A stretch of 64,000 bases of DNA from NCBI GenBank assembly GCA_025462725.1, contig JAOAPE010000008.1, forward strand, positions 1 to 64,000, read 5' to 3'. Positions 6,346 to 25,669 of the stretch are shown piece after piece. The first letter of the stretch is position 1; every line of letters begins with the position of its first letter. The position numbers and the translations under genes were made by a program. Below the pieces are notes generated by a model. It was not told the origin of the DNA. It ran no database searches and was given only the letters and a program-made list of their open reading frames with translations. Origin of the DNA: Terriglobales bacterium. Lineage in GTDB: Bacteria > Acidobacteriota > Terriglobia > Terriglobales > Acidobacteriaceae.

Positions 6346-6539
6346 CAATGCCTTCTTCAAAACGGTCTCGAATTTAGCTCTTGTTTACACATGTCCTTGG
6401 AAGATAAACCACTTCTGCTGTTGTCGGTTCCTTTAATTCCTTGCCTTCTCAATTAAGGGCGAGAAATGGTGCCACGCTTAAGAGCGAATAAAGATTCTCA
6501 ACTGTGATTAGACTCTTTCGGGATCGCATGCTGGAAACT

Positions 6540-6845
6540 CTAACGGGAACATACTTCGAAGGTCGGCTCGGATGCCTCGCAATCCGGATGGATGCAGTTC
6601 CAGAACAGTGTTGATTCCTCAATTGCTGTGATCGCGACTGCTCCTGCGTGCGCTGGACAATGCTTTAAGGTCTGAGTGGAGATGTCCATGAGTTCGTTCG
6701 TCACGTTGTGATAGCCATGCCGCTCTACGAAATGACGTGAGCACCCCTGTTCTGTGCAGCGGAAGACCGAGAAGGGCCAGCGATCTGACTGGGAGGCGAA
6801 GACCTTCATCGGTAACTGGTGAATGTCGCAGAACACTTCGAGCAT
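6540..6845 (-). CDS. Small cysteine/histidine-rich hypothetical protein
   Basis: A 101-residue protein with CDIH near residue 6, CTEQGC near residue 30 and two further Cys/His pairs (KHCPAH, NCIHPDC). This suggests two zinc sites of the kind found in short treble-clef or zinc-ribbon proteins. The role is unknown. It starts 21 bases after the Ymh-family gene on the same strand, with a weak GGGGA ahead of the ATG, so it is probably the second gene of that transcript. The terminal Cys-Ser-Arg leaves the last Cys near the C-terminus. Confidence 0.5.
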   Translation of the reverse strand: MLEVFCDIHQLPMKVFASQSDRWPFSVFRCTEQGCSRHFVERHGYHNVTNELMDISTQTLKHCPAHAGAVAITAIEESTLFWNCIHPDCEASEPTFEVCSR

Positions 6846-6866
6846 GTTTGATCCCCGTTATTCCGT

Positions 6867-7619
6867 TCAAATCGAAACTTGGCCAGCCGTTTCCACGGCT
6901 TTGGTTCTCGAATCAACGATTCGAAGCAGATGACTCGCCAGCATCAACATTTCGACTGCTTCTGGAGCATCGATCTGCACGTTTCGGTGACTGTGCGGGT
7001 TCTTATAAGAACCGATCGCCCCTGCGAACAATGCGGCAAGAGATTTTCTCTCCGCTAAAACCGCGGACTGATCGCTGAGCGGTCCCTCCTCAGAACCAAA
7101 CGCCTTTCCCATGAGATCTACACCAATGGCAGTATCAGGGAATCCGCCGGCAGTGCGTACGGCGACCTCGACCTCCTTGAACGCTTGAAACACTGCGGTG
7201 TCGTAGTCTCCTCTCAGAAACAAGGAGTAGACTCGGGTCGCGATGGCGGGGTGCAACAAGCCACGTGGAAGTAGTTGGGATTTGCGATAAGAATCATACT
7301 GCGCGCGCCCCGCTAGCTTCGTACCAAGGCGCGTGATTACAAACCAATTGTTAGTTGTGTCTTCAGTCTGACGCATGATCATTCCCTCGCGCTCTAACCA
7401 CTGCCAAGCTTCAGCAAGCGCACTCTTGATTTCGCCCCCGTGCCTTGGCGGGTAACCGTGTAGCGGGTGCGGAGATCCGAAGAATTGCTGCCGGTGGAGG
7501 AAATGCCTTTCGGTGTGATCGAACGAGTTTAGGCACTCGAGAAGCACGCCAGCGAGTTCATCTGGTCCCAGTGCCAGAACGTCCTCGTCCTGCGGAATTA
7601 TCTGCGAGATGAACTTCAT
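6867..7619 (-). CDS. Ymh/TIGR02391 family protein
   Basis: A 250-residue protein. The C-terminal half carries the TIGR02391 (Ymh) signature: LLHPAIATRVYSLFLRGDYDTAV, then FQAFKEVEVAVR, LMGKAF, and ALFAGAIGSYKNPHSHR with the conserved NPxSHR near residue 210. The N-terminal ~100 residues look like a winged-helix-type region (KSALAEAWQWLEREGMI). Family members are common in prophages and in restriction and defence neighbourhoods. A biochemical activity is not established to my knowledge, though the conserved His/Arg motif suggests an HEPN-like helical fold. The ATG at 7619 is used; an AGGAAGG box lies rather far (about 18 bases) upstream. Confidence 0.8.
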   Translation of the reverse strand: MKFISQIIPQDEDVLALGPDELAGVLLECLNSFDHTERHFLHRQQFFGSPHPLHGYPPRHGGEIKSALAEAWQWLEREGMIMRQTEDTTNNWFVITRLGTKLAGRAQYDSYRKSQLLPRGLLHPAIATRVYSLFLRGDYDTAVFQAFKEVEVAVRTAGGFPDTAIGVDLMGKAFGSEEGPLSDQSAVLAERKSLAALFAGAIGSYKNPHSHRNVQIDAPEAVEMLMLASHLLRIVDSRTKAVETAGQVSI

Positions 7620-7863: not shown

Positions 7864-8718
7864 CTAATGACAAGTCGTTTCTGGTAGCAACGCATTGTCA
7901 GTTTTCGTGAAGCACGCAGAAGCCCTATAACTTTTTCCGTCATACCGGTAGATTGTGACAAAGGAGCCGCCTGCAGTGAAGACATCTCGATAACCGTTTG
8001 TATATTCCTTTAACGATGTCACTCCGCCGCCTACATCTTGAGAAAGCAATGTAAAGTACCGAGCTCCCCGCTTCTCGACGATTTCGAAAGGGCAGCCCGC
8101 AGATCCACAGAACATTTCTGGATCATCGGCATTAGGATTACCACTTATGACTATGGCCGGCGGCCCGAGCTCATTCAGTTGCATGGCAACCGCGGTTGTG
8201 GCTCTTCGAACAGCGATGCTTGTCGTCCCATGCTCTTCCATCTGTTGCCAGTAGTCTTCTGGAACCGGAATATAAGCAGGTTCCGGTGCATGCATGGCTG
8301 CCACGATCTCCTTTTCAAAATCGCGTAGTGTAGTTTTAGTTTTGTCTCTGGGAACGCAGATAACGCCTTCTCCGCCACCAGTTACGGCTTCGTTACTTTC
8401 AACTCCATCATCTCCGCAAACTGATTGGTTGGAATCTGCTCGGAGATTGGTCTCCTGCGGCTTCGATCTCAGTGACGGATTTGCTGGACTTTCGCTTGAA
8501 AGGAACAAAAAGGACGTTATCAAAACAGCAACAACGATTAACACTAAGAAGAACCACTTTGCAGCGATGCGAACAAAGTCATCAAGACCACTCGCGTCTA
8601 CAACAACGATCGGACTTTGGGTCTGGGTGAGTGATGAGCTTTCCGGAACGAGAGTCGAGCCACAGCTAATGCAAAAACGACCAGAACTGGATTGAACTCT
8701 ACAGGATTGGCAGGTCAT
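7864..8718 (-). CDS. Zinc-ribbon membrane protein with an extracytoplasmic domain
   Basis: A 284-residue protein. Residues 1-25 form a zinc ribbon, MTCQSCRVQSSSGRFCISCGS (CxxC ... CxxC). A single transmembrane helix follows at about 57-77 (WFFLVLIVVAVLITSFLFL). The remaining ~200 residues would lie outside the membrane and contain three to four Cys, including CGSAGCPF, possibly disulfide-bonded. No known domain is recognised in the C-terminal part. It is the last gene of a three-gene minus-strand operon, 9 bases after the DUF2628 gene, and all three genes encode a zinc ribbon. Confidence 0.6.
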   Translation of the reverse strand: MTCQSCRVQSSSGRFCISCGSTLVPESSSLTQTQSPIVVVDASGLDDFVRIAAKWFFLVLIVVAVLITSFLFLSSESPANPSLRSKPQETNLRADSNQSVCGDDGVESNEAVTGGGEGVICVPRDKTKTTLRDFEKEIVAAMHAPEPAYIPVPEDYWQQMEEHGTTSIAVRRATTAVAMQLNELGPPAIVISGNPNADDPEMFCGSAGCPFEIVEKRGARYFTLLSQDVGGGVTSLKEYTNGYRDVFTAGGSFVTIYRYDGKSYRASACFTKTDNALLPETTCH

Positions 8719-8727
8719 TGGTTGGCC

Positions 8728-9276
8728 CTAGATGGGAACATCTTTGCCCTGCGCAGCCTTGCAGTAATACATATAGTTCCCGCGCGCGCCGAAGATAAAA
8801 CAATACGCAACTCCCACCAGCCCACCCGTAAAAAGCGATCCGACAAAACAGATGACTACTGGCAGCCAAATTCCTTTTGTGAGCGCCCAGAAACCCCCGA
8901 ACAAGAACGCAGCCCAGTTCCATTTCCCTTTGTACGACTCTCGAGTGTTCTCAATTTGTTGAAACTCATTTAGATAATAGGAGCTTAGTCCGGCGAACTT
9001 CCATCCGGTTGCGGCATTTACTGTCGGAAGAGGAGGAAACGGGACCGCAGTTGGCAACGGTGGAACTAATTCCCGAACCTTGACACCGCAACCGGCACAG
9101 AATGGCTTTTCGCCTGCAACTGCAGCGCCGCATGATGGACAGAAACGAGCCACCGACTGGGATACAGCCGGTGCAGGTGCCGGAGTCACGGGATTTCCGC
9201 AGTGCCTACAGAACTTTGAGTTCTCGGGAGTATTGGATCGGCAACTATTACAAACAATTTCAACTGCTTGCTCCAT
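8728..9276 (-). CDS. Double zinc-ribbon protein with DUF2628
   Basis: A 182-residue protein. Two zinc ribbons stand at residues 9-27 (CNSCRSN ... CRHCG) and 45-65 (CPSCGAA ... CAGCG), followed by a proline-rich linker. The C-terminal part begins SSYYLNEFQQIENT and KGKWNWAAFLFGGFWALTKG, which is the DUF2628 pattern, and holds two hydrophobic helices that end in FGARGNYMYY. Family members are inner-membrane proteins of unknown function. It sits between two other zinc-ribbon genes with 3- and 9-base spacings, so the three are almost certainly cotranscribed. Confidence 0.75.
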   Translation of the reverse strand: MEQAVEIVCNSCRSNTPENSKFCRHCGNPVTPAPAPAVSQSVARFCPSCGAAVAGEKPFCAGCGVKVRELVPPLPTAVPFPPLPTVNAATGWKFAGLSSYYLNEFQQIENTRESYKGKWNWAAFLFGGFWALTKGIWLPVVICFVGSLFTGGLVGVAYCFIFGARGNYMYYCKAAQGKDVPI

Positions 9277-9279
9277 CTA

Positions 9280-9723
9280 TCACCTCACTGGAGCGGCTAT
9301 CTTCGATCCGCAATCTGAGCAATAGATAGCACTAGGAGCGTGACTATTGCCGCAAGAGGTGCAGAACGTCTGGCATGGAGAGGGTGAATTTCGAGATACA
9401 TTGGCGGTCGGCGATGGCGGATGAAGGCGTTGCTGCATCATTGAAAAAAACCTCCGGATGTTATCCCCGTTCTTTCCCCAATCCACCAATTGCCAATCAG
9501 TAGAGGACTCGACTCGCACTTCGGTCGCGTTTTCAAGGGGGACGAGTTGAATCTCAATTGCTTCTCCAAACGACCTCAACCCGGCGCCAGTTTGGGCCCG
9601 GAGCAGTGAAGAAGAAGATTGCGTTTGCTTCAAGGCCCAACCTAGCTCTCGTAGTGCCGCTACAGCCGAGTCGAATACGACAGGTTGTACGGCCTGGAAC
9701 GTGTGACTCGCCCGACTTTTCAT
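9280..9723 (-). CDS. Hypothetical protein with a C-terminal zinc ribbon
   Basis: A 147-residue protein. The N-terminal ~95 residues look like a small alpha/beta domain (FDSAVAALRELGWALKQ, then EIQLVPLENATEVRVESST), the kind of fold seen in lipid-handling or DUF1499-like proteins, but I cannot name it. The C-terminus carries a zinc ribbon, CTSCGN ... CSDCGSK. An upstream TTG at 9732 is possible, but the ATG at 9723 is preferred. It is the first gene of the zinc-ribbon operon and diverges from the XRE regulator across a ~110-base region that contains operator-like repeats. Confidence 0.55.
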   Translation of the reverse strand: MKSRASHTFQAVQPVVFDSAVAALRELGWALKQTQSSSSLLRAQTGAGLRSFGEAIEIQLVPLENATEVRVESSTDWQLVDWGKNGDNIRRFFSMMQQRLHPPSPTANVSRNSPSPCQTFCTSCGNSHAPSAIYCSDCGSKIAAPVR

Positions 9724-9787
9724 AATTGGCAACGCGAAGTAGATGAAGTCTGTTATTGGGGCTTTGCTTGCACGTATAGCCCTTCGT

Positions 9788-9837: not shown

Positions 9838-10053
9838 ATGTCCAATGACATTTGCGTGAGGTTTGGTATACACATCCGACGTCTTCGGCTTAAGCGCCGT
9901 TGGACCCAAGTCGAAATGGCCGAAGCGTTAGGAATAGATCGAAGCTATCTGTCAGAGATTGAGGCAGGGAAGAAAGAGATATGCTTGCGCAATTTGGACA
10001 TTGTTGCGCAGGGCTTCGGGATGAGCATAGCTAAGCTGATGAGTGGAGTCTAA
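9838..10053 (+). CDS. Small XRE-family transcriptional regulator
   Basis: A 71-residue protein that is essentially one Cro/C1-type helix-turn-helix domain. It runs GIHIRRLRLKRRWTQVEMAE, ALGIDRSYLSEIEAGKKE and LRNLDIVAQGFGMSIAKLM. Size and sequence resemble controller proteins of restriction systems and small phage-type repressors, which bind as dimers to tandem palindromes. Such a tandem site is present just upstream (9788-9821). No clear ribosome binding site precedes the ATG, so the transcript may be leaderless. It is divergent from the zinc-ribbon operon and points toward the tubulin-like operon 157 bases downstream, which it may also control. Confidence 0.85.
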   Translation: MSNDICVRFGIHIRRLRLKRRWTQVEMAEALGIDRSYLSEIEAGKKEICLRNLDIVAQGFGMSIAKLMSGV

Positions 10054-10209: not shown

Positions 10210-11253
10210 ATGCATTTGAATTGTTGTTCCAAAACACTAGGCATTTTTTTGCTAATCCTCATAGCGGCGCTTCCATGCGCTGCGTCGGAGCCTATTGTCG
10301 CCATTGACGTGTCCCAAAGCATGCAGCACTACGGCGCTTGGCAGGGGGATGTCAAAGCAGCGCTTGCAAGTGTGTTGTTTGATGGAAAGAAACCTTCAGA
10401 GACTGCCTGGAGGTTTACAGGTAATGTCGATGTATTGCATCGGTTCCTTGCCCAAGGGAGCGTTCGGATTATTCGATTTGGGAGTTACCCAGTACAGGAG
10501 TATCCGTACTTCAACTTAGCTCAAGCTTCCGACGGAATTGCATTTAATAAGGAATTCCCCAACGCAAATGAATTTAAGGACCAAAAGACGAACAAGCCAC
10601 TCGCGTTAGCGATCGCTGCAGATCTCTCTGCCGAAAATGCCTCTGAAGGTTTTGCGATTGTCGTTTCAGACTTCTTGACTGATTCCGACGTGTCGCAACA
10701 GCACCAAGATTTCATAAACAAAGCAGAGTCCGAGTTTAGTCAACAAATTCCTCTGACACTTACATGGTTGAAAGATCCTCGAGTTCAACTGAAATTTATT
10801 CAGTTTGAACGAGCATCTACTCGCCCCAACGCAGCTTCGCAAGAGAGCAATCCGATTACATTGTTACTTCCTGAATTTTCAAAAGAACGACCAGTGCGCT
10901 ATGTACTCCGATGGAAAGCAGATAATTCTTTGGAGCGCTTCAATGTCAAAGTTGAAGATTCAACAACTCGCGAAACGATGTTTGAGAAATCCAATCTGGC
11001 ATCAAGGGAAGCTATTTTCCTGAACCCTCCTAGCAGAAATATGCGCTGGTACGTTACTGGATGGCGTGCATCGGGAGAAAGCGTCCGTTCTAACACTCAG
11101 ACGTTGACGAGCCCCCCCCGTGAATCTTCGATTCTACCAATCGTTTTACTGCTGACTCTCATTGCTGGGGCAGGAGCTTTGGTATTCCGAACACAAAAAT
11201 TACCAGCGTGGATAGATAACCTCTTAAAAAGAAGGAACTCTGAATGGTCCTAG
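10210..11253 (+). CDS. Membrane-anchored vWA-domain protein of the tubulin-like system
   Basis: A 347-residue exported protein. It has a signal peptide (IFLLILIAALPCAASE) followed at once by a von Willebrand factor A domain. The metal-ion site DVSQS is at residues 33-37, and a later VVSDFLTDSD strand supplies further MIDAS-type acids. The second half is predicted to be beta-rich. A transmembrane helix at about 311-331 (ILPIVLLLTLIAGAGALVF) and a short basic tail follow, so the vWA domain faces outside. vWA domains make metal-dependent protein contacts. It is the first gene of the eight-gene operon and overlaps the next gene by 10 bases. Confidence 0.75.
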   Translation: MHLNCCSKTLGIFLLILIAALPCAASEPIVAIDVSQSMQHYGAWQGDVKAALASVLFDGKKPSETAWRFTGNVDVLHRFLAQGSVRIIRFGSYPVQEYPYFNLAQASDGIAFNKEFPNANEFKDQKTNKPLALAIAADLSAENASEGFAIVVSDFLTDSDVSQQHQDFINKAESEFSQQIPLTLTWLKDPRVQLKFIQFERASTRPNAASQESNPITLLLPEFSKERPVRYVLRWKADNSLERFNVKVEDSTTRETMFEKSNLASREAIFLNPPSRNMRWYVTGWRASGESVRSNTQTLTSPPRESSILPIVLLLTLIAGAGALVFRTQKLPAWIDNLLKRRNSEWS

Positions 11254-11639
11254 ACATACTTGATTACTATCGTGGCCTTCTTTGGAGCCCACAGCCTCTT
11301 TATGCCACTGGTGCCGTCATTCAGGCTGCTCTAGCACTTCTAATTCCGGCCCTGATAACTTGCTGGATCGCTGCTATTTTGATAACTAGAGCATTTCTCG
11401 ACCGTCGAGCAGAATTAACAACTTTCGTGCGCGCGCGTCTAGGCTGGACCTGGGCAGGGGTGATGGGTATCCTGCTCATTCTCAGCCATATAACCGTCCT
11501 CGCTTACTTGCAAAGAGTCCTAGCTGTATCTGCAGTGCTCCCGTACTATTCAGCAGCATCTGTTCTGGCATTGTTAACTGCCGTGCAGTTTTTCTCGTTG
11601 AGACGTGAGCTCAAGACGTGGCAACGAAGAGTTAGCTAA
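11244..11639 (+). CDS. Small polytopic membrane protein of the tubulin-like system
   Basis: A 131-residue membrane protein with about three hydrophobic helices, near residues 22-48 (VIQAALALLIPALITCWIAAILI), 70-90 (WAGVMGILLILSHITVLAYL) and 95-115. Basic residues flank the helices. No family is recognised. It overlaps the end of the vWA gene by 10 bases and lies 8 bases ahead of the tubulin-like gene, so translational coupling is likely. A role in anchoring the complex to the membrane is an inference from position only. Confidence 0.6.
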   Translation: MVLDILDYYRGLLWSPQPLYATGAVIQAALALLIPALITCWIAAILITRAFLDRRAELTTFVRARLGWTWAGVMGILLILSHITVLAYLQRVLAVSAVLPYYSAASVLALLTAVQFFSLRRELKTWQRRVS

Positions 11640-11647
11640 GGATCAAA

Positions 11648-14080
11648 ATGGAAATACGTCCATCAATAGTCATAGGACTAGGAAGCACTGGAAAGCACGT
11701 TGTAAACATTCTTCAGAAATACATGTCTGAGGTGCTGAATACCGAAAGCCTCGACATTTTCCGGTTCCTAATTCTTGAAACCGATATGACGTCTACTGAT
11801 GAGGATGTTCTGTCGGGTGACACTCAAGTAAAACCAATAAACATCCATGTCCAAAACACCGGTCAAGCTTTCACGGCTATGAAATCCACTTTGAAAGAGG
11901 ATTTTTCGTGGTGCCCGCAGGATCTCCAAATAGGAGGTTTGACCGGTGCGGGCAATAAGCGAGCAGGTGGACGGTTCATGTTTTTGTACAAATATTCGGA
12001 TATAGAGGAGGTATTAAAGTCTGCGATTACCGAAGTGAAAGTTGCGGCTAACAGTCCTGCTACCTCCATAAAGCTTAGGAGCTTGCTAGAAAAACGACAC
12101 GCTCCGGTTGGGGATAGCGTCATTAGCCAACCAAATCAGGTCATTGTTTATGTTGTAGGCAGCTTGGCAGGTGGTACCTGTTCCGGTGCATGCATCGACC
12201 TTGGATACTTAATACAGCGACTCGAGCCAGGAGCAGTCAGGAATGCGATTTTCTTCATCCCGGACGATTCAGCTAACGTCCCATTCAAGGCAAATACATG
12301 GGCAGCCATCAAAGATCTAGAGTTCTTCTGCAAGAACCCAGCAGCGTATGAAGTGTCGTGGCGTACCAATGCAGGGTTCAAACAAACCTACTCAACGTTA
12401 AACCAGCAAAGTGCGCCATACCAGAGGGTTTATTTACTCTCCCAGCGAGATCAGAACGGCAATCTGCACTTGGAATTCAAGACGAGTCCGAGTTCGCCTC
12501 TGCTCATGATGGCCGGTCTTCAATTAGCTGCTGATTTACTGGGGATGTTTGCTCACCGGGATTCACGGCTCGTAAATTTGAACGCCCAGATTGGACATGA
12601 TCCCGTGCACAATATGTTCCTCAATTACAACTTGCGCGCGGTGAGCTATCCAAAATACGAAATTGCAGAAGGGGCATCCTGCAAAGCGATTGCAGAAATT
12701 ATTTGTGAAGGTTGGCTTGACCCTGAAGGCTATATGGAGGGAACTACCCGTCAGCCACTTGAGCGAGAGAATGCGGAGAAACGCGGACGTGAAGCCTGGC
12801 GTGAAATCAGTGCCAACCACTGGCCCGGTCTTCGGGCCGATGTAGACATTGATACTTTCATTGATCAGCTAACGAAAGGGCACACTGATAAGCCGGGTCA
12901 ATCAATCCGGACCCAATTTGCAGATGATGTTCCTGGAACTATTTACCGTTTTGTGCAGCAACATGTGGCTGAGAGACAAAGGTTCATTCGAGTTGCAATT
13001 ACGAGGCGCTTTGTTAGCGAGATGGCCAAAAAACGGAGTTTGGCGGCCGGAGAATCGTTCATAAAAGGCATATGCGATGAAGTTGATTCCATGTGCGGTT
13101 ACTGGAAAAAACTGGGAATACCCGAACGTTCAGACAAACAGGCATGGACCGTAAACGTTCAACAGTCGCTCGAAAGAATAAGTCAGCGCAGGACTGGGTT
13201 CAACGTAACCACGGCCTTCCTCAAGCGTGAATCTCTGAGAGATGAATTGGAAGAAGTACTGTCCAAGTTAGAGATGTTTTTGATGTTTAGTGCAGTGTCT
13301 GAAATCAAGAAATATTGTCAGACTGAACTGCATCAACGAGTCGGTCGAATTCGCGAATCGTTAAAAATCGTACAAAATCAAGCTCGATCGAGACACGATG
13401 CCATCGTTGCCGGATTGGCAAATCCTACAGGCCCAGTGCTAAAAATTTCGCGATCTCAACAAATCAAATTTGCCGCGGAGATTGCTGAACTTTCAACGAG
13501 ACCTATTGAATTAGACGATTCTTTCTTTCTTGCTTCTGATGAGGAAGGGCACTTAACCGGTAGCTTTGCAATCCCTATCGACCAGAGGTCAAACCAGGCT
13601 ATCAAGCTGTTTTCGGATCTTAGATCAAAGCTCCAGCCGCAAATGCTGATTGCAGTTGAACAACATGGACCTGTAAATATCGTGCGCGAGATTACCGAAC
13701 AAGGCATGATTCCTGCGACCGCCCAGCGTGCCAATGTAGCTCACCAGTTGTCAATCAGCGTGCTCGGTGCACTTGCTGTGGAACCAAACGCAGTTCCGTC
13801 CTATGTTTTGGCAAAGGACGAAATTTCAGCCATGAGCATTCTGACGGAATGTAACGCGAGACAGCAGCATATTCCGCCTTATCAAACGAAAGCCCTCCCA
13901 CTGTTTGACCACATGGCAATTTTTCATCAGGAAGGTGCGAGGCTAAGTCCAGATGATTTGCGCCATGCGCAGGATTTCGCAACCGCTTTAGAAGCTGCTT
14001 TTACGCAGCCAAATGGTCGCGACATCACAGATCCTTATCACCTAATTAAAGCGCGACTGGGCTTAAGGGCTAACGTATGA
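11648..14080 (+). CDS. FtsZ/tubulin-like protein (Tubulin_2 type)
   Basis: An 810-residue protein with an N-terminal tubulin/FtsZ-type nucleotide-binding region. The first loop IVIGLGSTGKHV puts GLGSTG at residues 10-15. The tubulin signature appears as AGGTCSGA with GGTCSG at 175-180, flanked by VYVVGSL and a following helix, as in Tubulin_2 proteins. The protein is about twice the length of FtsZ. Its long C-terminal part (residues ~350-810) is mostly helical and unrecognised. Members of this divergent group are known from genome surveys next to vWA and OmpA-type genes and are predicted to remodel membranes. GTP binding and polymerisation here are inferred. It starts after AAGGA and ends in a 4-base overlap with the next gene. 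Confidence 0.75.
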   Translation: MEIRPSIVIGLGSTGKHVVNILQKYMSEVLNTESLDIFRFLILETDMTSTDEDVLSGDTQVKPINIHVQNTGQAFTAMKSTLKEDFSWCPQDLQIGGLTGAGNKRAGGRFMFLYKYSDIEEVLKSAITEVKVAANSPATSIKLRSLLEKRHAPVGDSVISQPNQVIVYVVGSLAGGTCSGACIDLGYLIQRLEPGAVRNAIFFIPDDSANVPFKANTWAAIKDLEFFCKNPAAYEVSWRTNAGFKQTYSTLNQQSAPYQRVYLLSQRDQNGNLHLEFKTSPSSPLLMMAGLQLAADLLGMFAHRDSRLVNLNAQIGHDPVHNMFLNYNLRAVSYPKYEIAEGASCKAIAEIICEGWLDPEGYMEGTTRQPLERENAEKRGREAWREISANHWPGLRADVDIDTFIDQLTKGHTDKPGQSIRTQFADDVPGTIYRFVQQHVAERQRFIRVAITRRFVSEMAKKRSLAAGESFIKGICDEVDSMCGYWKKLGIPERSDKQAWTVNVQQSLERISQRRTGFNVTTAFLKRESLRDELEEVLSKLEMFLMFSAVSEIKKYCQTELHQRVGRIRESLKIVQNQARSRHDAIVAGLANPTGPVLKISRSQQIKFAAEIAELSTRPIELDDSFFLASDEEGHLTGSFAIPIDQRSNQAIKLFSDLRSKLQPQMLIAVEQHGPVNIVREITEQGMIPATAQRANVAHQLSISVLGALAVEPNAVPSYVLAKDEISAMSILTECNARQQHIPPYQTKALPLFDHMAIFHQEGARLSPDDLRHAQDFATALEAAFTQPNGRDITDPYHLIKARLGLRANV

Positions 14081-14685
14081 AGACACATTTTCTTCCATCG
14101 GAACAAAGCATTCGCGTAGCTCGACTTCGAGCTACGCTGAAAACAGTAGCTGTATTATTCGTGTGTGCTTGTCTGGCACATTTGGCCTCGGCTCTTTACC
14201 TCGTAGAACATCCAGCACAACCCTCGATTCCACAAATTGCCGGAACCGACGGTTCTTCGCATGATGTAGCGCTAGTTGCTCCCCACTGGGCGGTAACAAC
14301 TTCTAACATTGGACAGAAGGCAACTATTTCTGCAGAAAGCTGGCAATCTAATGCCACGCTGATACGTGAAGCCTCCATTTCTGGCACGGCACTTTATCTG
14401 TATAAGCTTGATTCTCCGGATGCCTCTCGCTTGGGAACTCTTCAGTTCCCAGAATCCAGTCAAGAAGTAACTATTCAGGGTAAGGCTGGATCTCCAATGA
14501 GGCTCAGCCTTGCTGAAGACGGTAAAGGGAGTCTTAGCGAAGAGGTTGGGGAGTTTGTAGGCCGTGCCATCATGCCAATTAGCGATCCAAACGCTGTTCT
14601 TGGCATTCTCGCTGAAGGTGACGGGAAAGCAGTTGTCATTTCAACTTCACAGCTCATAAAAGCATTTCCAGAGTTGGCGCATTGA
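14077..14685 (+). CDS. Signal-anchored protein of the tubulin-like system
   Basis: A 202-residue protein with a short basic N-terminus, one hydrophobic helix at about 22-44 (TVAVLFVCACLAHLASALYLV) and a ~155-residue domain that would lie outside the membrane. The domain is rich in Ser, Ala and small beta-type segments and has no Cys after the membrane helix. No domain was recognised. The ATG overlaps the tubulin-like gene by 4 bases (ATGA), and the next gene starts 1 base after its stop. It may be an extracytoplasmic partner of the vWA protein, judged only by topology. Confidence 0.6.
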   Translation: MKTHFLPSEQSIRVARLRATLKTVAVLFVCACLAHLASALYLVEHPAQPSIPQIAGTDGSSHDVALVAPHWAVTTSNIGQKATISAESWQSNATLIREASISGTALYLYKLDSPDASRLGTLQFPESSQEVTIQGKAGSPMRLSLAEDGKGSLSEEVGEFVGRAIMPISDPNAVLGILAEGDGKAVVISTSQLIKAFPELAH

Positions 14686-14686
14686 A

Positions 14687-15850
14687 GTGTGCAGCGTACT
14701 TATAGCTTACCTTGGCGCCGCAGGCGAGACTGTGAGACCAACTTTGGCTACTAGGTTACAAGAGCTAGATATCAAACGACATGAAGAATCATTTCCGAGC
14801 ACTCAGAACTTCCGCGCGGAACTAACGCATGTTCGGCGTCAGATCAATGTGGACAAGGTGTTGCTTGTGGGTTGCGAAGACTTAAGGAGTTGGGATGCCG
14901 AACTCCATTCGCATCTTGAAAATGATCGTATTCCGTACGACCTCGTGTTGCCCGTGGGGCCCAATTCAGGTCCTCACCCAATCGCTTTTCCTGGAACAAC
15001 TTGGGTAGTGGATGCCGAAGGACTAACAGCCTTCCAGTCCGTAGTCGAATTCTCAACATTTCTACTTTCTTTGCTGCCGAATCGGATGCTTGCAGGCATC
15101 CCTAACGCCAGATGTTTCTCAACAGCACGCGTAGGAAGCCAGGTCTGGCAAGTGAAGATGATGCTGGAGAATGCTGACCCTGTGGACAATGAAGCCGGTA
15201 TCGTAGCAAAGGGCCTCCTTTACGACAGGCTATTCAATCAGGTCCCACGCCGGCCAGAGCAAGTAGTCTCTGATCTGATCTCCAGTCTTACCCTAGAACC
15301 GCAGCCGTTTTCGTCCAATGCACACATCGTTCGGTCAAACTTGTCTACAAGGGTTGTACCGCAATTGCTTCAGTCCGCTTCTGAAATTTGCCCTGATTGG
15401 AGAACGTTTCGGGATTATCTCAGCAGCCTTGGGTCCGAACTCCGAGTCGGGAAGCGGCCCTTACTTGGGGCTGCACTAGAGACGATTTTGTGCGAGTTTC
15501 CAGAAGAACCGCCCGAGATTCAACGCGAGTATTTGTCGTTTTTAAATTTTGAAAACAATCTTGGTACTTATCCGATATTAAGCCTTGGGAACTCGCTCTC
15601 AAGAGTCTTGTCTATCCGAGAAGCACATAGCAATTTGTTCACCCGAGTTGCGGCCGACCTTGTTCAAGAACTCCGGCAACGATTCCAGAGGCGGATTTAC
15701 AAGCGCTTGAGCGAACGAAGGGCAGAGCTTGAACCAGAAGAACAATTGTTCTTAGTTCTGCCAACGAGACTATCTGTGGATTTCAATGAGGAAGTTTGGA
15801 CGCAAACGGATTTGTGTGCCTTGATCAGTATGCGTCCAATAGGTGCTTGA
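14687..15850 (+). CDS. Unrecognised 387-residue protein of the tubulin-like system
   Basis: Starts with GTG one base after the previous stop. The N-terminal ~120 residues look like an alpha/beta Rossmann-like domain (VLIAYLGAAGETVRPTLATR, then VDKVLLVGCEDL and IPYDLVLPVG). The rest is helical and ends in a charged segment (LRQRFQRRIYKRLSERRAEL). There is no P-loop, so it is not the separate GTPase reported with related systems elsewhere. No signal peptide or membrane helix is seen, so it is probably cytosolic. Function cannot be assigned. Confidence 0.55.
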   Translation: MCSVLIAYLGAAGETVRPTLATRLQELDIKRHEESFPSTQNFRAELTHVRRQINVDKVLLVGCEDLRSWDAELHSHLENDRIPYDLVLPVGPNSGPHPIAFPGTTWVVDAEGLTAFQSVVEFSTFLLSLLPNRMLAGIPNARCFSTARVGSQVWQVKMMLENADPVDNEAGIVAKGLLYDRLFNQVPRRPEQVVSDLISSLTLEPQPFSSNAHIVRSNLSTRVVPQLLQSASEICPDWRTFRDYLSSLGSELRVGKRPLLGAALETILCEFPEEPPEIQREYLSFLNFENNLGTYPILSLGNSLSRVLSIREAHSNLFTRVAADLVQELRQRFQRRIYKRLSERRAELEPEEQLFLVLPTRLSVDFNEEVWTQTDLCALISMRPIGA

Positions 15851-15851
15851 A

Positions 15852-17414
15852 ATGGATTTATTGCTTTTCGGACTTGGTGCAATCGGATTATGGTTGCTTG
15901 CTTTTGCAATCTTTGCATTCCTGGGTAACTTGAAGGGATTCCGTGCAGCAGATGCACAGATCACGATATTCGAAAGTAGGCTTATTACCCATTCGGGAAC
16001 AGAGAGGCTTTCTGAGGGTGAGGTCTTTGAGTTTTCGGAAGGCCCTTCTTCCGCCATCGCAAGCTCTCTGAGCGCGCACCTTCGTTCCATGAAAAGGGCA
16101 GCTTCGGCGAAAGCACTTGCTACCTTTAATACAGATGCCGGACTTAGATCGTTTGCTGCAGCCTCTATGGCAGGGGTTACAAGAATCCGGGCAATAAGCG
16201 GCATTGTATTGATTTTAGGCTTGGTAATCACTTTAGTTAATTTGCAGGGTGCCGTCGCAAGCCTCGACCGTGTGCTACAGGAAGGACGCGCTCCAACTAC
16301 CAGCGGTGCTTCAAAAGCACTAGATCCAGAGGCGTTGCAGACTGGAATGCGTGGGATAGCTGCTTCGGCCACCCAGGCCTTCCGCTATAGCGCGATTGCA
16401 ATAGGCATTGCTGCACTGCTCCTAATCTGTGCGATGGCTCAAACAAGAAGTGCTCACGAGCTGAATCGACGCCTTTGCGCCGCTACAGCTGAACTGATGG
16501 CTATCGCTGCGACGGAAGAGGTGCGGACCTCTCCGGATCATGCCCTTGCAAACCTTTCGGAGGTGATTAATAACTTTTCAGAGATGACGCGCGTCTTTGA
16601 GAAAACGAACTCCGGGCTGGAAGAACTGGCATCGTTTGGATCCAAGTTCGAATCTTCTGCGGAGTTGATTAGCAAAGCTGTTGATGGTCTACCAAAACAG
16701 ATACAAACAGGGATGGTCAACCTATCGGCGGATGTAGCCCGCGGCATCAATGAAGATCTCAAGCATCAGCTTGAATATTTAAAACGGATCGCTGCGATTT
16801 ATGGCGATCAGCAGATTAACATCACCCAAATCCAGAAGTACATGGACGGCATGGCTGCTCAAGTAGAAAGCTCCTCCAAGTCGATCCGGCAGCTTGAAGG
16901 TACTCCGGCAGCGATCCAGGCCCTCACGGCGGTATTGAATCAATTCGATTCCTCAACGGGTATTCTCCGAACTGACGTGCAAAAACTCAACTCCAAAGTC
17001 TCTCAGTTTCCAATTGAAGAATTCTCAAAGGCGACGCTCGAGTTCAAAGAACTCTCCGCCACGCTAGCTCCAGCACTTTCCGAGCTTAAAGAGGCAGCAT
17101 CCGAGCTAGATGCGAAAGTGAATTCCACGCTGGAACAAGCGCAAAACAATTTAACGGAAAAGACTCAGTCTTCTATCGACCATCTCGTTATAGAGATTTC
17201 ACGGATACTGTCAAATGGTTTGTCTGCAGGCCTGGAGCATTCGATTTCCAACATCCATGCTGAAATTTCAACAATTCAACGAATGTTGAGCTCTGCCGCT
17301 GGAGCTGGAGCTGGAGCAGGGAATGGCAACGACTCCGCGGGCCTCGTAGCGATCCAAAAGAAACTGATTCATATTTCATCGGAACTTGACCGTGTACCAA
17401 AATGGAGGCTCTGA
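15852..17414 (+). CDS. MotA/TolQ/ZorA-like membrane protein with a long cytoplasmic tail
   Basis: A 520-residue protein with three predicted membrane helices, at about 3-24 (LLLFGLGAIGLWLLAFAIF), 112-134 (AISGIVLILGLVITLVNLQG) and 178-198 (AIAIGIAALLLICAM). A ~85-residue cytoplasmic loop separates the first two. About 320 residues of helical, heptad-rich tail follow. This is the topology of ExbB/TolQ/MotA stator proteins, and the long tail resembles ZorA of the Zorya defence system. Near the C-terminus there is an Ala/Gly run. ATG at 15852 is preferred over GTG at 15843 because AGGTG lies 7 bases ahead. The next gene, a MotB-like partner, starts 1 base after the stop. Confidence 0.65.
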   Translation: MDLLLFGLGAIGLWLLAFAIFAFLGNLKGFRAADAQITIFESRLITHSGTERLSEGEVFEFSEGPSSAIASSLSAHLRSMKRAASAKALATFNTDAGLRSFAAASMAGVTRIRAISGIVLILGLVITLVNLQGAVASLDRVLQEGRAPTTSGASKALDPEALQTGMRGIAASATQAFRYSAIAIGIAALLLICAMAQTRSAHELNRRLCAATAELMAIAATEEVRTSPDHALANLSEVINNFSEMTRVFEKTNSGLEELASFGSKFESSAELISKAVDGLPKQIQTGMVNLSADVARGINEDLKHQLEYLKRIAAIYGDQQINITQIQKYMDGMAAQVESSSKSIRQLEGTPAAIQALTAVLNQFDSSTGILRTDVQKLNSKVSQFPIEEFSKATLEFKELSATLAPALSELKEAASELDAKVNSTLEQAQNNLTEKTQSSIDHLVIEISRILSNGLSAGLEHSISNIHAEISTIQRMLSSAAGAGAGAGNGNDSAGLVAIQKKLIHISSELDRVPKWRL

Positions 17415-17415
17415 C

Positions 17416-18000
17416 GTGGAGATTGACGACCATTTTCCAGATGAAAACGTTGCATGGCCCAGCTATGTCGATTTTCTGTCGACGTTTGTATTCATATTGA
17501 TACTTTTTATCGGCTGCCTAGTTTTCTTTATCTCAGATGTTCAGGACAGGGCCAACAGACAGAAGCGACTTGATGAAATCTCGAAGACGCTGAAGGATCA
17601 AGGAATTGCCAACGTCGTAGACGGAGAGCGTATAGTGCTTTCTTTGCGCGGCAAAGTGCAGTTTGAAAAAAAGGAATCTATTCTTGATGAAAAGGGTCGG
17701 GACTACCTTCGTTTGGCTGGGCAACGAATTGCAAAACTTCCACGCGCTGAACGAATAGTGGTTCAGGGGTTTGCAGACGCCGACAAGTGCCCGAATGATG
17801 AATTCTGTAATTGGCAGTACTCTGCGAGTCGTGCCCTGGAAGTTCTGAAATTCATGTACAAATGCCAAAATTGCGGTTATGGCCAAGACATAAAACAGAA
17901 GTTGGTGCTCGCAGGGGATGGAGATATTTCAGCAGCAAAGGTGGCGCTGGGCAGTGATAGGAGAGTAGATGTCATCCTTGACTATTCATCTCCCCGATAG
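17416..18000 (+). CDS. MotB/OmpA/ZorB-like stator partner
   Basis: A 194-residue protein. After a short acidic N-terminus comes WPSYVDFLSTFVFILILFI, one membrane helix with Asp19 at its entry, in the position of the ion-carrying Asp of MotB. The C-terminal domain is OmpA/MotB-like, with a beta segment (IVLSLRGKVQFE), VVQGFADADK, and SASRALEVLKFM including the conserved Arg. OmpA-type domains bind peptidoglycan. Four Cys between about residues 124 and 155 are unusual and may bridge. GTG at 17416 was chosen because GGAGG lies 7 bases upstream. The frame is open earlier without such a site. Confidence 0.75.
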   Translation: MEIDDHFPDENVAWPSYVDFLSTFVFILILFIGCLVFFISDVQDRANRQKRLDEISKTLKDQGIANVVDGERIVLSLRGKVQFEKKESILDEKGRDYLRLAGQRIAKLPRAERIVVQGFADADKCPNDEFCNWQYSASRALEVLKFMYKCQNCGYGQDIKQKLVLAGDGDISAAKVALGSDRRVDVILDYSSPR

Positions 18001-19096
18001 ACCGTGGTTGCCGATTTGGCCAAAATGGCTCCGTCGGCGACGTATGCGCGCCTTCACCGATGCCTTTGCGCATTCAATGGAAACGTTTGTATCAGCAACT
18101 CAAGAACAACAAAAAGTTTATCGCCGCATATGCTTTACCACTTACGCTGCCAAAAGGTTAGATGAACATCAAAGACAGATTACGAAAGCTCACAAACAAT
18201 TCAAGGGCTCACTTAACAGTTCTTTAGATCCCGAGTCCATGGTCAAGGCGGCCAAAACTCTCCAGAGCATTGGTTCTACTCTCAAAGACTCGATTACGTT
18301 CGACGAAGGCATTCGGTCCAGATGTGAAACTCAGGAGCAACGCTTTCTTGAATTGGAGTCTTTAGCGAATCGATATAAGGGAGATAGTCGTCGTGATCTC
18401 GATAGAAAACTCGAGCAATTCCGCCAGCGCCGCCGAGAGTTGCCAGTCCGCAAACGTCATGAAGACGTTATTGCCATTATGCGAGATTTGGAAGCCATCA
18501 CGCAGAGCTTAGATCGTTCCATCTCTGGTTTTGAGCGGACCCGAGAACGGGCTGTATTTATTGGACGCGACTCTGAAAAAATAGATCAACAACTTCTTAA
18601 TGCTGCTCCAGAAGCGGCGAACCGATTTGCGAACGTCTGCAACTTAAACAAGCTCGTAGTGGAAGCAATCGAAAAAGGAGATTTCGGAACTGCAAGTTCT
18701 CTATGTAATCGAGCAGAGGAAATGGTTAAGGCTATTCGTGAGGATCTCGATAAGCTTAAATCATACTCAGCAGCCGAGATTCAGGAATGGCACGCATACT
18801 TATCCAGAGGGAGCTCACTAAGCTCAGCCTTTCTAGGCGACCTAGAGAAGCTGTTCAACACCTTCGATGCCGATACGGTTACCTGTTGGAAGCAAGTTCG
18901 CCTGGTTATGGAACCGCCGATTTTGAGTATTGCCCGGAAATCTCGGTTGGCAAACCGAGCCATTGCAAGGCGATCCAACCATTCCCTTTACCCAGATTTG
19001 GACCGTTTGATGAATTTGGATGTGTTGGAGAGTTTCGCAAGGGGAGTTTCTATTCAGTCGCGGAGAGCCTTTCATACAGATAAAAGGTCAGAGTAA
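17969..19096 (+). CDS. Coiled-coil protein closing the tubulin-like operon
   Basis: A 375-residue, highly charged, largely helical protein. A basic N-terminus (PKWLRRRRMRAFTDAFAHSM) is followed by long heptad-like stretches (LDEHQRQITKAHKQFKG, LDRKLEQFRQRRRELPVRKR, ISGFERTRERAV). No membrane helix, signal or known domain is seen. The ATG overlaps the OmpA-like gene by 32 bases and has AGGAG 5 bases ahead. By position it could link the stator tail to the tubulin-like protein, but this is speculation. No obvious terminator follows in the 35 bases before the converging gene. Confidence 0.6.
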   Translation: MSSLTIHLPDRPWLPIWPKWLRRRRMRAFTDAFAHSMETFVSATQEQQKVYRRICFTTYAAKRLDEHQRQITKAHKQFKGSLNSSLDPESMVKAAKTLQSIGSTLKDSITFDEGIRSRCETQEQRFLELESLANRYKGDSRRDLDRKLEQFRQRRRELPVRKRHEDVIAIMRDLEAITQSLDRSISGFERTRERAVFIGRDSEKIDQQLLNAAPEAANRFANVCNLNKLVVEAIEKGDFGTASSLCNRAEEMVKAIREDLDKLKSYSAAEIQEWHAYLSRGSSLSSAFLGDLEKLFNTFDADTVTCWKQVRLVMEPPILSIARKSRLANRAIARRSNHSLYPDLDRLMNLDVLESFARGVSIQSRRAFHTDKRSE

Positions 19097-20793: not shown

Positions 20794-22618
20794 TCACTCC
20801 TCCTCGTCATCAGCTTCAAGGCCGTTCTCGCCATCGGAAGCAGAGGTTGCAACTGCCTGCTTGCCCATAGTTTCTTCAACAAGGCGCAGCAGAGTCTCTC
20901 GTCTAAACGCGAAAAAACCTTCAAAATCATCGGCCCGAAGAAACTTAGGCTCGATGTTGTGACTGCGCAAGATGATATCCATCCCATTATCGTCGAGCTG
21001 CACAGCCTTATGGTCCTGTAATTTCTCTAGGTATTCTGAAGGGGCACTGCCCCCGATCTTGCGATTTGCTTTGAAAGAAATGGCGGTCTTGTTAATTATC
21101 GAGTTGTAAACGCGAGGTGAAATTTTCAGTTCCTGGTCCTCGCACCACTTTCTAGGGAAAATGTGGTGGATATCGATCCCTTTCTCATTGCGGTCGAGAT
21201 CCAGCATGCGTGCTTTCCAGAAGAAGTCTTTTGCTCCACAGTGCTGCACCAACACGTAAAGTCCCCGATAAGCGGCGGAAGTCCGAGTTCGCATCGTATC
21301 CAGCCGGCTTGCCTGGAATCCTGCATCCGCTACGGTCTTGGGAGTAGCATCCGCTTGATCAAGCCACTTCAATAGGTCCTGAAGATCGAGAGCAATCCGA
21401 GTCTCAGAAGCACTGCCGTAAAGTTCACCGAAAACTCCACACCAAAACCAACGCGCAAGTTTGTCTTGAACCTGCGGTTCGAGCCATCGATCGCCAATAA
21501 GAGTCAAAGCTGCAGCGAGAGGGATGAGTTGTGCCCGGTACGGCAGAAATCTTGGATCGTGGAAGCCCAAATGCCGTAGAAACTGATCGCTTTCGAAGAA
21601 CCCCTCCACCAGCTTGTCCGCCCACTTCTTGTATGCGGAGAGCGGCATTGACAGAATGTGTTCACGCTTCGCGCTGACGGGGGTGACGGCTTTCCCAGTC
21701 TTACCGACCCTAATATCCTGCTGCTGGCGTTCGTAGGTATGCAGCAGGCTGATGCCTTGAAGAAATTCCGTCGCCGCCGTCTCTTTCAACAGCGGCTTCG
21801 TTGCGAGCTTGTCTCTTCGGCCCTTTTCTTTGCCTTCTCCGTACCAGTCCCGTCGAAGATTAAAACCATCGGCAGCATAAGCCGCTGTTACCAGCTCGAA
21901 AACAGACAGTTGTACACCACCTGTATTGACTTTCTCGAAGACGAGGCACACGGCTTCTTTCGATGTGCCTTTTTTTAATTCAATCACTGGAACGAGGTAG
22001 GACCGGAATGCACTTAGTATCAGCTGACGAAATTCCATGTAAACACTGAAACGATCCGGATAGGCTTTGTTAAGCCCGATTTCCCATGCATCGGAATTAA
22101 GAATTTGATTACATGGGAAATGGAAAGAAGAATACTCCTTCATCGGGGTGCTGAGATCGAGGACTATATCCCTCCCAAAATTTGACCGAATCACTTTGTC
22201 CTCGCCCACTCCGATGATTGCTTCTTCCATCGTAACGGGGCCAGACAAAGTCTTTGCGATATCGAAGTAGTAGTACCTTTTAATCTCGCGTTTGTTCGTG
22301 TCTTGCGTAGCGACAGGGGTAGTCAGCTTGAGTACTTGAGTGAGCGATGTGAGCCGCTGTTGACCATCCAGAATCATTGATTTGGTTTGCGGTGGTGACG
22401 CCCTCCACGGGGCGTTCCTGAAATCGGGCCTCTCCGCCTGTTTCAAGCAACATGACTGCGCCTATGGGAAAGGAGCGAGCGATACTTACCATCAGAGAAC
22501 GGATATGTTCATCGTCCCAAACCCAACCACGCTGAAAATCTGGAAGTTGAATCTTACCGTCAACAATCTCGTCGAGTAGCTTTGAAAGTTCCGTCTTGGT
22601 TGAATCGAAGGACGACAT
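20794..22618 (-). pseudogene. DUF262-DUF1524 (GmrSD-like) gene with a frameshift
   Basis: Together the two frames encode a ~608-residue GmrSD-type protein. From ATG at 22618 the first frame gives the DUF262 start with IVDGKIQLPDFQRGWVWDDE and SLMVSIARSFPIGAVMLLE, and runs to RFQERPVEGV. The second frame resumes at TKSMILDGQQRLTSL, the DGQQR motif of the ParB-like DUF262 fold. It ends in DUF1524, an HNH-like nuclease domain, with IDIHHIFPRKW and NKTAISFKANRK. The shift lies within 22381-22402. Relatives are type IV restriction enzymes that cut modified DNA. The acidic tail ADDEEE is at the end. It may be dead, or the indel may be a sequencing error. Confidence 0.8.
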
Positions 22619-24181: not shown

Positions 24182-24346
24182 AGAACGACAAACAGAAGTT
24201 TCTGTGGAAGGGTAATCGGAACTTCAAATTGTAGCAACAGATTTTCAAGAAATCGAAAATGTAGATAATTGGTAGTACTAGCTGCTCATTGTTGTTATAA
24301 GAATGCACTCGGCCACTCCGAGTCCCAAACCCTAAGGAATTCCTCC

Positions 24347-25669
24347 ATGCCAGACTTCCAAACATCTCGCGACACACTAAACGAAATTGCCGAACGCCTG
24401 AAGCGCCAGGAGCATTCAGGCTATGCGGGCGCACAGTTTCGGATTGCATTAGCTCGAGCGGACGAGCGTCTTAAGTTTGTGACCGGATTTGTTCTCCTCC
24501 GGCAGGACCATATCCCCTCGCGCGTGGTAGCGGATTATGGCACGTTGCTGTTGCTCGAACGTTGGATAGCTATTGATGATGTGCTGGACTTCTTTGCCAA
24601 GCTCTTATCCGGTCAAGCAGAAATGGAGGGCCACAAAATTTCTGACAAATTCAGCAACTCGAGATTGGACGCCGAGCCACATCCCCGAGGGTCCGAGTTG
24701 TGGTCTGGGTGGAGGTTTTCAAGTTATTGCGATAGAGATCCCAATGAGCATGAAGTGCAACTTGGGCACCAGCCACTCTTGGCCTTTGGGCTACAGCCGT
24801 TCTCCTCGCCTGGTCATGCGATCCGTAGATGGATGTTCGAGGAGCCACGGATCGAACATTACGATAGCTCCGTCCCGAATCTGGGACAACTAATTACTTT
24901 TCTTCCCGATACACGGGCTCGGATTATCAAGGCGCGGTGGACTCCGGGCAAACTGGTCCTGGTGTCTGAATCGAGAATATCGGAGGAAAGATTGCAATAC
25001 CAAATAGTTCAACATGGCAGCGAATCCGAGTTCCAGATCATGCGGGGCGTCGTAGGCGAAGCAACATTTGAAATCCCCGAAGACACGCGCGAACTAGTCA
25101 TCTATATGTTTGATAAGGATGGCGGATTCATTACACGCACGGAGCTCCGGGCTCTATACGAGACGATAGGATTCGAGGACGAAGAAGCTACTGATTTGGA
25201 CGCTCATCTGCTGGATTTATCACGAGGCGAAGGGGACAGCGTTGAGTACAAGCCTTTCATGCAACCAAACAACGACAAGGAAAGTGAGTTTGTCGAAAGC
25301 GTCATTGCGTTTGCGAACACGAATGGGGGAAAGGTTTACGTCGGAGTGCAGGACAGGGACGGGAAGCCATACGGGAGAGGCGAATTAAGAAAGATCTTTT
25401 CGAAATACCCTGATCCAGTCCAAGCACAGAGGGATCAGTTAAGGTGGCTGGTGAGCAATAAAGTAAAACCTATTCCGAGTTTCCACGTTGAAGCTATGGA
25501 TGCATTTGGCGAACCGGTCTTGGTCGTGTCAATCGAACGCAACGATGCAATCTGCTCTACACATGACAACCAGATTTGGGTTAGGCACGGAGCCACAAAC
25601 TATCGCCCCGATGCACAAAATGAACTTCGACGCCTTTTGCTTAAAAACTCCTTAGAAATGCGCCTGTAA
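24347..25669 (+). CDS. Schlafen-type AlbA_2 domain protein
   Basis: A 440-residue protein. The C-terminal part (about 295-435) is an AlbA_2 (Schlafen AlbA) domain. It begins GEGDSVEYKPFMQ, with ESVIAFANTNGGKVYVGVQD and later PVLVVSIER and IWVRHGATNYRP. AlbA_2 domains occur in predicted nucleic-acid-binding, defence and regulatory proteins. The N-terminal ~290 residues are not recognised; they have no membrane helix and look like an alpha/beta region followed by a small beta region (RIIKARWTPGKLVLVSESRI). Start at 24347 is supported by AAGGAATTCCTCC just upstream. It is divergent from the gene at 24181. Confidence 0.75.
   Translation: MPDFQTSRDTLNEIAERLKRQEHSGYAGAQFRIALARADERLKFVTGFVLLRQDHIPSRVVADYGTLLLLERWIAIDDVLDFFAKLLSGQAEMEGHKISDKFSNSRLDAEPHPRGSELWSGWRFSSYCDRDPNEHEVQLGHQPLLAFGLQPFSSPGHAIRRWMFEEPRIEHYDSSVPNLGQLITFLPDTRARIIKARWTPGKLVLVSESRISEERLQYQIVQHGSESEFQIMRGVVGEATFEIPEDTRELVIYMFDKDGGFITRTELRALYETIGFEDEEATDLDAHLLDLSRGEGDSVEYKPFMQPNNDKESEFVESVIAFANTNGGKVYVGVQDRDGKPYGRGELRKIFSKYPDPVQAQRDQLRWLVSNKVKPIPSFHVEAMDAFGEPVLVVSIERNDAICSTHDNQIWVRHGATNYRPDAQNELRRLLLKNSLEMRL

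Follow-up and report, generated by a model that had tools for sequence, protein, structure and literature searches.

Positions 10210-19096 of the window, as we call the whole 64,000-nucleotide stretch analysed here (Terriglobales bacterium, Acidobacteriota; assembly GCA_025462725.1, contig JAOAPE010000008.1, positions 1 to 64,000 of the forward strand), hold a run of eight genes in which a protein of the Tubulin_2 family (gene 3) is accompanied by a MotA/MotB-like pair (genes 6 and 7). What is new here is that this pair of a Tubulin_2 operon appears closest, as a family, to ZorAB, which in the Zorya system is described as an ion-driven motor that is anchored in peptidoglycan and extends a tail into the cytoplasm (PMC11890865), and that the motor's aspartate and threonine are kept. 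We favour the reading that the operon encodes one envelope-spanning motor-coupled tubulin machine, most likely used as a horizontally acquired accessory defence system, and taken as a whole this reading seems to us evenly poised between right and wrong. A membrane-remodelling system comprising the FtsZ-tubulin family FtsZl1, a von Willebrand factor A (vWA) protein, a GTPase and OmpA-family proteins was predicted by Makarova and Koonin (2010; PMC2875224). An earlier, sequence-only reading of the same DNA had cited that study for this prediction, correctly as to its content, and gene 3 falls into its FtsZl1 family.

The tubulin-like protein

Gene 3 (11648..14080, plus strand), of 810 residues, matches Pfam Tubulin_2 (PF13809) with an expectation value (E) of 2.2e-35 (123 bits, the cut-off being 27), aligns with 34 other Tubulin_2 domains in hhalign with probability 99.9 and E 8.5e-32, and bears the GTP-loop motifs GLGSTG (T1, residues 10-15) and GGTCSG (T4, residues 175-180) at the very residues where the sequence-only reading had placed them when it called the protein Tubulin_2-type. 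The structural comparison proposed by the same reading as a test of the tubulin fold points the same way: in an AlphaFold model built from two sequences and of low confidence (mean predicted local distance difference test, pLDDT, 39.8), residues ~1-300 resemble structures of tubulin, FtsZ and CetZ, the 50 Foldseek matches listed being all tubulin-superfamily or microtubule entries (best E 3.2e-5, residues ~3-298) and the 50 rows listed by VIA likewise, with CetZ at Z 14.3 and a root-mean-square deviation of 2.7 over 160 residues. The C-terminal region is drawn by this low-confidence model as long helices, and a sequence search of the PDB with gene 3 gave no match. Judged from sequence and model together, gene 3 is a true tubulin-superfamily protein of the FtsZl1 (Tubulin_2) family with the tubulin/FtsZ nucleotide-binding fold, presumably cytosolic and predicted to bind GTP. 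Asparagine N216, invariant in 12 Tubulin_2 sequences, opens a conserved helix-like stretch which, by eye, is a possible counterpart of the T6-H7 region left unplaced in the 2010 paper.

The genome holds one Tubulin_2 gene only, and a search of 61 relatives detected the gene 3 protein in a single one, the window's own genome; one near-full-length relative (G334, 36% identity) was present among 399 genomes of the class, and any Tubulin_2 match at all in 28 of 396 genomes of the phylum, a search in which eight genomes had weak matches only (E 5.8e-5 to 8e-4) and stand outside the loci compared below. Scanning genome contigs with two narrow patterns returned solely the L003 contig, already in the set. 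No relative of gene 3 was matched in phages, and none was confirmed in two scans of viral contigs. The canonical FtsZ of the same genome is encoded at 50995-52278 (TIGR00065, 415 bits), ~32 kb 3' of the operon. In some Acidobacteriota a second diverged tubulin-like gene lies directly 3' of the Tubulin_2 gene, with strong support in L041 (6486-9677) and weaker support in L082 (11848-16056) and L080 (12846-15386).

The motor pair and its closest relatives

Gene 7 (17416..18000, with a longer frame from 17386; plus strand) encodes one transmembrane (TM) segment carrying an aspartate, followed by an OmpA-type peptidoglycan-binding domain that matches Pfam OmpA with E 1.8e-6 (28.6 bits, the cut-off being 27.2) and PADLOC ZorB1 with 2e-13, the latter being an E value taken without PADLOC's own score thresholds; MotB/PomB domains were returned by a PDB sequence search. 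All 9 MotB-like proteins checked have the motor aspartate, as do both ZorB proteins, and ZorB models match six of the seven MotB-like family members. The OmpA/MotB-like character first ascribed to gene 7 is thereby confirmed. Searching plasmids with gene 7 by tblastn also brought up 23 Burkholderiales records, annotated as OmpA or unannotated.

The MotA/ZorA-like partner, gene 6 (15843..17414, plus strand), possesses three hydrophobic TM segments and a tail of ~320 residues; by the same measure TolQ has three such segments and Escherichia coli MotA four. Taken alone it has no MotA_ExbB match in Pfam, nothing meaningful in the PDB sequence search, and a PADLOC ZorA match (0.015) confined to the tail. 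Its kinship emerges at the level of the family: the protein is matched to Deinococcus MotA-like proteins, one of which carries the annotation MotA/TolQ/ExbB, with a phmmer E of 2.5e-5 and to the other six MotA-like members with E 3e-4, and residues G123, L124 and T127 (numbered from the ATG at 15852) are invariant in seven sequences. The three-segment topology and the motor threonine expected of ZorA (ring Thr/Ser) are retained. The profile of seven MotA-like proteins found ZorA with E 3.7e-9, TolQ/ExbB of the own genome with 6e-4 and Escherichia coli MotA with 0.11; against single sequences it gave 3.8e-6 and 2.3e-7 for ZorA and 8.9e-4 and 2.7e-3 for TolQ, the best E in the control being 0.0086 among 132 other proteins (a set of 136, four of which are family members). 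When run over 297 Acidobacteriota genomes, the same profile retrieved, besides the window, three loci distributed over two genomes; two of these three, tested by PADLOC, carry ZorA, ZorC and ZorD (Zorya type I), with ZorB in addition at one of them, and the frame sizes of the remaining locus repeat this layout. These comparisons support, at the family level, a position of the gene 6/7 pair closest to ZorAB, more than to TolQ or MotA. The stator pair of the sequence-only reading is supported in this family sense; gene 6, there called MotA/TolQ-like, is by itself unmatched by MotA_ExbB, and it is its family that stands nearer to ZorA than to TolQ. By analogy with ZorAB, the products of genes 6 and 7 probably assemble into an ion-driven motor that is fixed to peptidoglycan and has its tail in the cytoplasm.

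Recurrence of the tubulin and motor genes

The survey of Tubulin_2 neighbourhoods, also suggested earlier, covered the flanks of 37 loci where a profile found a Tubulin_2 frame (L037 was excluded, its frame having been lost in the calling of open reading frames); a locus was regarded as motor-linked if MotA-like and MotB-like genes lay no further than 12 kb from the tubulin gene and on its strand, and four of the seven motor-linked loci supplied the seeds for the motor profiles. These seven are the window, two other Acidobacteriota (G717, locus L047; G729, locus L085) and four Deinococcus plasmids. A recognised vWA gene occurs within the same limits of strand and distance in 15 of the 37 loci. 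Parts of the gene set thus recur, but the exact set of eight was seen solely in the window; the recurring core consists of the tubulin, MotA-like and MotB-like genes, and in one relative the order is vWA, tubulin, a protein without family name, MotA-like, MotB-like and a further nameless protein. Deinococcus gene 1 was tried as a vWA protein and rejected (hhalign probability 3, E 0.014; no DxSxS motif in the two checked).

Searching 162 genomes with the MotA-like protein of G729 alone retrieved the query itself, G1008 and G1040. In G1008 tubulin, MotA-like and MotB-like genes stand in one run, making an eighth motor-linked locus; in G1040 (L128, 4052-5919) a MotA/MotB-like pair lies beside proteins without family name, with no tubulin on the 7.2 kb contig. 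No motor genes were seen at two further tubulin loci on short contigs (L129 and L130). On the tubulin tree, the details of which are made unsure by long branches, the motor-linked label needs three changes (four counting FtsZ), of which the starred branches force at least two. By their sequences the motor-linked tubulins are not one clade, so the motor would have been either recruited more than once or ancestral and often lost. L085 and L127 also share a second type of operon with a tubulin-like protein of ~500 residues (55% identical between both), a protein of ~1090 residues (41%), one or more membrane proteins, and MotA-like and MotB-like (53%) genes.

Layout of the operon and its other genes

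All eight reading frames are intact and open, lie on the plus strand and follow each other in the order given by the sequence-only reading, with overlaps of up to 32 bases and gaps of up to 8. Genes 1 and 2 overlap by 10 bases, 2 and 3 are 8 apart, 3 and 4 overlap by 4, and 4 and 5 are separated by 1; genes 5 and 6 overlap by 8, or have a gap of 1 if gene 6 begins at ATG 15852. Gene 7 overlaps gene 6 by 29 bases from the listed TTG at 17386 and follows it after 1 base from the GTG at 17416, directly ahead of which stands GGAGG, and this GTG is most likely its start. The earlier span of '10 to 1' bases for overlaps or gaps therefore holds at most junctions and fails for genes 7 and 8, which overlap by 32, while that between genes 6 and 7 depends on the start codon. 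Promoter-like and terminator-like sites at the operon were near shuffle levels. A 71-residue helix-turn-helix protein, XRE-like by eye, is encoded just upstream (9838..10053, plus strand) and by position alone is a possible regulator of the operon.

Gene 1 (10210..11253) encodes an exported protein with a C-terminal TM segment and a probable periplasmic vWA domain. It has no Pfam match; residue 33 begins a DVSQS motif of the metal ion-dependent adhesion site type (DxSxS), and the alignment to 16 neighbour vWA domains is weak (hhalign probability 26, E 7e-4, residues 29-160). With a vWA-like protein of L042 it shares 26% over 257 columns (blastp E 2.7e-4 in a one-sequence search; 0.05-0.06 for the same pair by hhalign). 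Its original designation as a vWA protein is accordingly moderately supported by motif and weak matches, Pfam adding nothing. Gene 2 (11244..11639) was rightly called a small membrane protein, having three hydrophobic segments, and a homologue precedes the tubulin gene in L003 (phmmer 6.9e-9). Gene 4 (14077..14685) has one N-terminal hydrophobic segment and is probably periplasmic. Its place in L042, L038 and L045 is taken by a Trypsin_2 protein that has a hydrophobic segment at its N-terminus and is encoded just 3' of tubulin (1864-2661, 12934-13710 and 6508-7269, respectively); gene 4 was considered as a degenerate trypsin and this was discarded, the similarity being non-significant. Genes 5 (14687..15850; no Pfam family up to E 1) and 8 (17969..19096; no significant Pfam family), both plus-strand as are genes 1, 2 and 4, are predicted to be soluble; gene 8 is the putative coiled-coil protein of the sequence-only reading. 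A single-sequence fold model of gene 5 was unusable (pLDDT 37.5), and a second tubulin in gene 5 found no support (hhalign E 0.14).

Genomic setting and defence-type neighbours

The fraction of guanine and cytosine (GC) is 0.48 in the operon against 0.558 in the window from 25.8 to 64 kb, and at third codon positions 0.37-0.49 in the individual operon genes against 0.66 in lon and 0.70 in ftsZ of the same window. Compared with contigs of four same-genus genomes, several of them short, the window shows similarity from ~25.8 kb rightwards and nothing left of this point matched; the tubulin protein was not found in these four genomes (71-84% complete). Owing to low GC, lacking synteny and a tubulin protein not found in congeners the region looks accessory, and the operon was probably acquired horizontally; the window begins where the contig does, and the left edge of the accessory stretch would lie beyond it. 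The description of the surroundings as an accessory region full of defence-type genes was right in its first half and overstated in its second, since three such neighbours were recognised: Hypoth_Ymh (6867-7619), GmrSD_N (20794-22446) and SLFN_AlbA_2 (24269-25669). Two other groups of genes attract attention in the window. At 7864-9732 three adjacent minus-strand genes with CxxC pairs have, by eye, a zinc-ribbon look (no Pfam match for the one scanned), and at 30478-31500 a second vWA-type gene (profile E 5e-39) adjoins a protein kinase with tetratricopeptide repeats (31516-33711), both being matched in congeners.

Defence genes stand beside some relatives as well. In G717 a same-strand run comprises ZacB (521 bits), ZacC (1131 bits), two genes, vWA, tubulin, a protein without family name, MotA-like, MotB-like and two more, with junctions mostly overlapping or near-touching and the widest gap, of 238 bases, ahead of the vWA frame; PglW begins ~5.5 kb past the run, beyond opposite-strand genes, and PglX is next. 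ZacB and ZacC belong to the Azaca system. Ahead of the vWA gene the run encodes a 585-residue protein (L047, 5010-6767) that has a single hydrophobic segment plus a long tail and bears a weak resemblance to ZorA3/RmuC. In Meiothermus a tubulin gene with no motor lies between HmaB/HmaC and BrxL; for Deinococcus QL22 the upstream genes include a DUF2357 gene and one encoding an AAA ATPase that matches PDC-M26A. Thermaceae plasmids (L025, L026, L029) carry vWA, tubulin and nameless genes followed by BrxL, preceded in L026 by HmaB and HmaC.

Comparison with known systems

With the FtsZl1 systems of PMC2875224 the operon shares Tubulin_2, vWA-type, OmpA-family and membrane proteins encoded together. 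A P-loop GTPase or protein kinase is frequent, not universal, in that scheme, whereas a scan with motif patterns (the G....GK[ST] type included) of the same-strand frames up to 8 kb from the window tubulin gene detected no P-loop, and Pfam found neither a P-loop GTPase nor a protein kinase among the eight operon genes; the GTPase foreseen in the 2010 scheme thus appears to be missing. The proposal that the operon is such a system is supported, with the exception of the GTPase. A second difference is that the OmpA protein of the window would be the B subunit of a motor having a MotA/ZorA-like partner. The main text of PMC2875224 contains no MotA, TolQ, ExbB, proton or motor, the additional files being a place where a MotA-like gene could be listed, and no defence role is put forward in the parts of it consulted here. 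For tubulin systems of another kind, linked to GTPases, a defence role has been proposed (Kaur et al., 2020; PMC7159879). They share with the window tubulin-domain proteins accompanied by vWA proteins, and the idea of conflict with invaders; they are built on DO-GTPases and GAP1, unlike the window with no P-loop motif near its tubulin, and MotA, TolQ or ExbB do not figure in the main text of that paper.

Zorya, the best profile match of the motor family, has in common with the operon a three-TM A subunit with a long tail and a B subunit with a TM aspartate and peptidoglycan-binding domain (PMC11890865). It differs in its remaining members: tubulin-like and vWA-type proteins occupy the place of ZorC, ZorD and ZorE, none of which was found among 18 window proteins scanned (the eight of the operon and ten others, other small frames being outside the scan), and hence the operon is not Zorya. 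TolQR, ExbBD and MotAB belong to the same general motor family, and TolQ has three TM segments like gene 6; differences are the weaker profile match for TolQ/ExbB, none for Escherichia coli MotA, the long helical-looking tail in the window and the link to tubulin. Flagellar stators have a four-TM MotA, and with three segments and a profile E of 0.11 gene 6 is not of that kind. Among the top-ranked open-licence papers listed in literature searches, none was recognisable as an experiment on FtsZl1/Tubulin_2 proteins or as joining Tubulin_2 with a stator.

Discussion

That the eight genes serve a single machine appears to us fairly probable, and a function in defence a matter of even chances. Several observations weigh against the combined reading. 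Thirty of the 37 Tubulin_2 loci have no motor pair, six of these with less than 3 kb downstream, so a Tubulin_2 protein can work without a motor; the motor label is clustered on the tubulin tree (as low in 3 of 500 shuffles), implying few independent recruitments; and genes 5 and 8, tested as homologues of the same-place proteins of L047, did not match them. Gene 6 alone matches ZorA (E 0.02) and TolQ non-significantly, and the profile search of 297 genomes did not list G717 or G729, which may have lain outside that sample. The tallies of defence neighbours have no baseline rate of defence genes near accessory genes, the PADLOC neighbour scan left out the motor-linked L028, L086, L087 and L127, and for L085 the one neighbour scanned gave no PADLOC match. 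The whole case, moreover, is built from sequence and models.

The rival that survives best, unlikely as we consider it, is a machine for envelope remodelling or vesicle formation with no role in defence, where the inner membrane would owe its shape to the tubulin-like protein, with force or a peptidoglycan anchor coming from the motor. It is the published proposal of Makarova and Koonin in its essentials (PMC2875224) and fits the periplasmic, membrane and peptidoglycan-binding partners; against it speak the patchy accessory distribution (1 of 61 relatives, 28 of 396 phylum genomes), the foreign-looking composition of the operon, the ZacB/ZacC linkage in G717 and, among the reviews printed with the 2010 paper, the doubt of one reviewer that a cytoplasmic FtsZ-like protein acts with periplasmic partners (PMC2875224). 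Defence is ranked as somewhat more likely than housekeeping remodelling. Quite improbable, in turn, is that two neighbours rather than one machine are observed, i.e. a vWA-tubulin system and a ZorAB-like module co-located as genes of an accessory island: the 30 loci lacking a motor pair and the G1040 pair with no tubulin on its contig agree with such independence, yet the tight order with overlapping or near-touching genes recurs in distant hosts, the motor genes of the window sit inside the run, and the search with a MotA-like protein only led to another tubulin operon, in G1008. A periplasmic force machine would have the motor work outwards via the vWA protein and the anchored proteins, for adhesion, secretion or movement, with the tubulin-like protein serving only to position it. 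Such a machine finds a parallel in the vWA proteins beside TolQ-like motors proposed as force transducers (PMC12204202) and is very improbable given that Zorya, rather than TolQ or MotA, provided the nearest motor relatives in these searches and that the distribution is accessory.

Under the favoured reading of a motor-coupled tubulin machine used in defence, a ZorAB-type ion-driven motor (genes 6 and 7) would be anchored to peptidoglycan and its cytoplasmic tail would act on the GTP-binding tubulin-like protein, with the periplasmic vWA-type protein and the membrane proteins (genes 1, 2 and 4) as sensors or positioning factors at the envelope and the products of genes 5 and 8 as two soluble partners. 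The tubulin-like protein would be the natural partner on the side of the motor tail, and the vWA-type protein on the periplasmic side. Disturbance of the envelope, for example by entry of phage DNA, might start the motor, and movement of the motor or its tail could trigger or orient tubulin-like assembly, whereby the invader would be blocked or the cell halted. The physical coupling of motor and tubulin, the polymerisation, the trigger and the defence outcome are what we infer in this scheme. A bolder version, doubtful but worth stating, is that a cytomotive tubulin-like polymer, its assembly or movement driven or gated by an ion-powered, peptidoglycan-anchored rotary motor of ZorAB type and the tail of that motor, forms a new effector branch of Zorya-like defence.

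FtsZl1/Tubulin_2 proteins have been predicted membrane remodellers since 2010, and once their OmpA companion is seen, in some lineages, as one of the two subunits of a ZorAB-like motor, a vague prediction becomes testable via one aspartate. The pairing, which we did not find described in the open-licence literature, would link ion flow to a tubulin-like protein; on this view ZorAB may be a motor module available to effectors besides ZorC, ZorD and ZorE.

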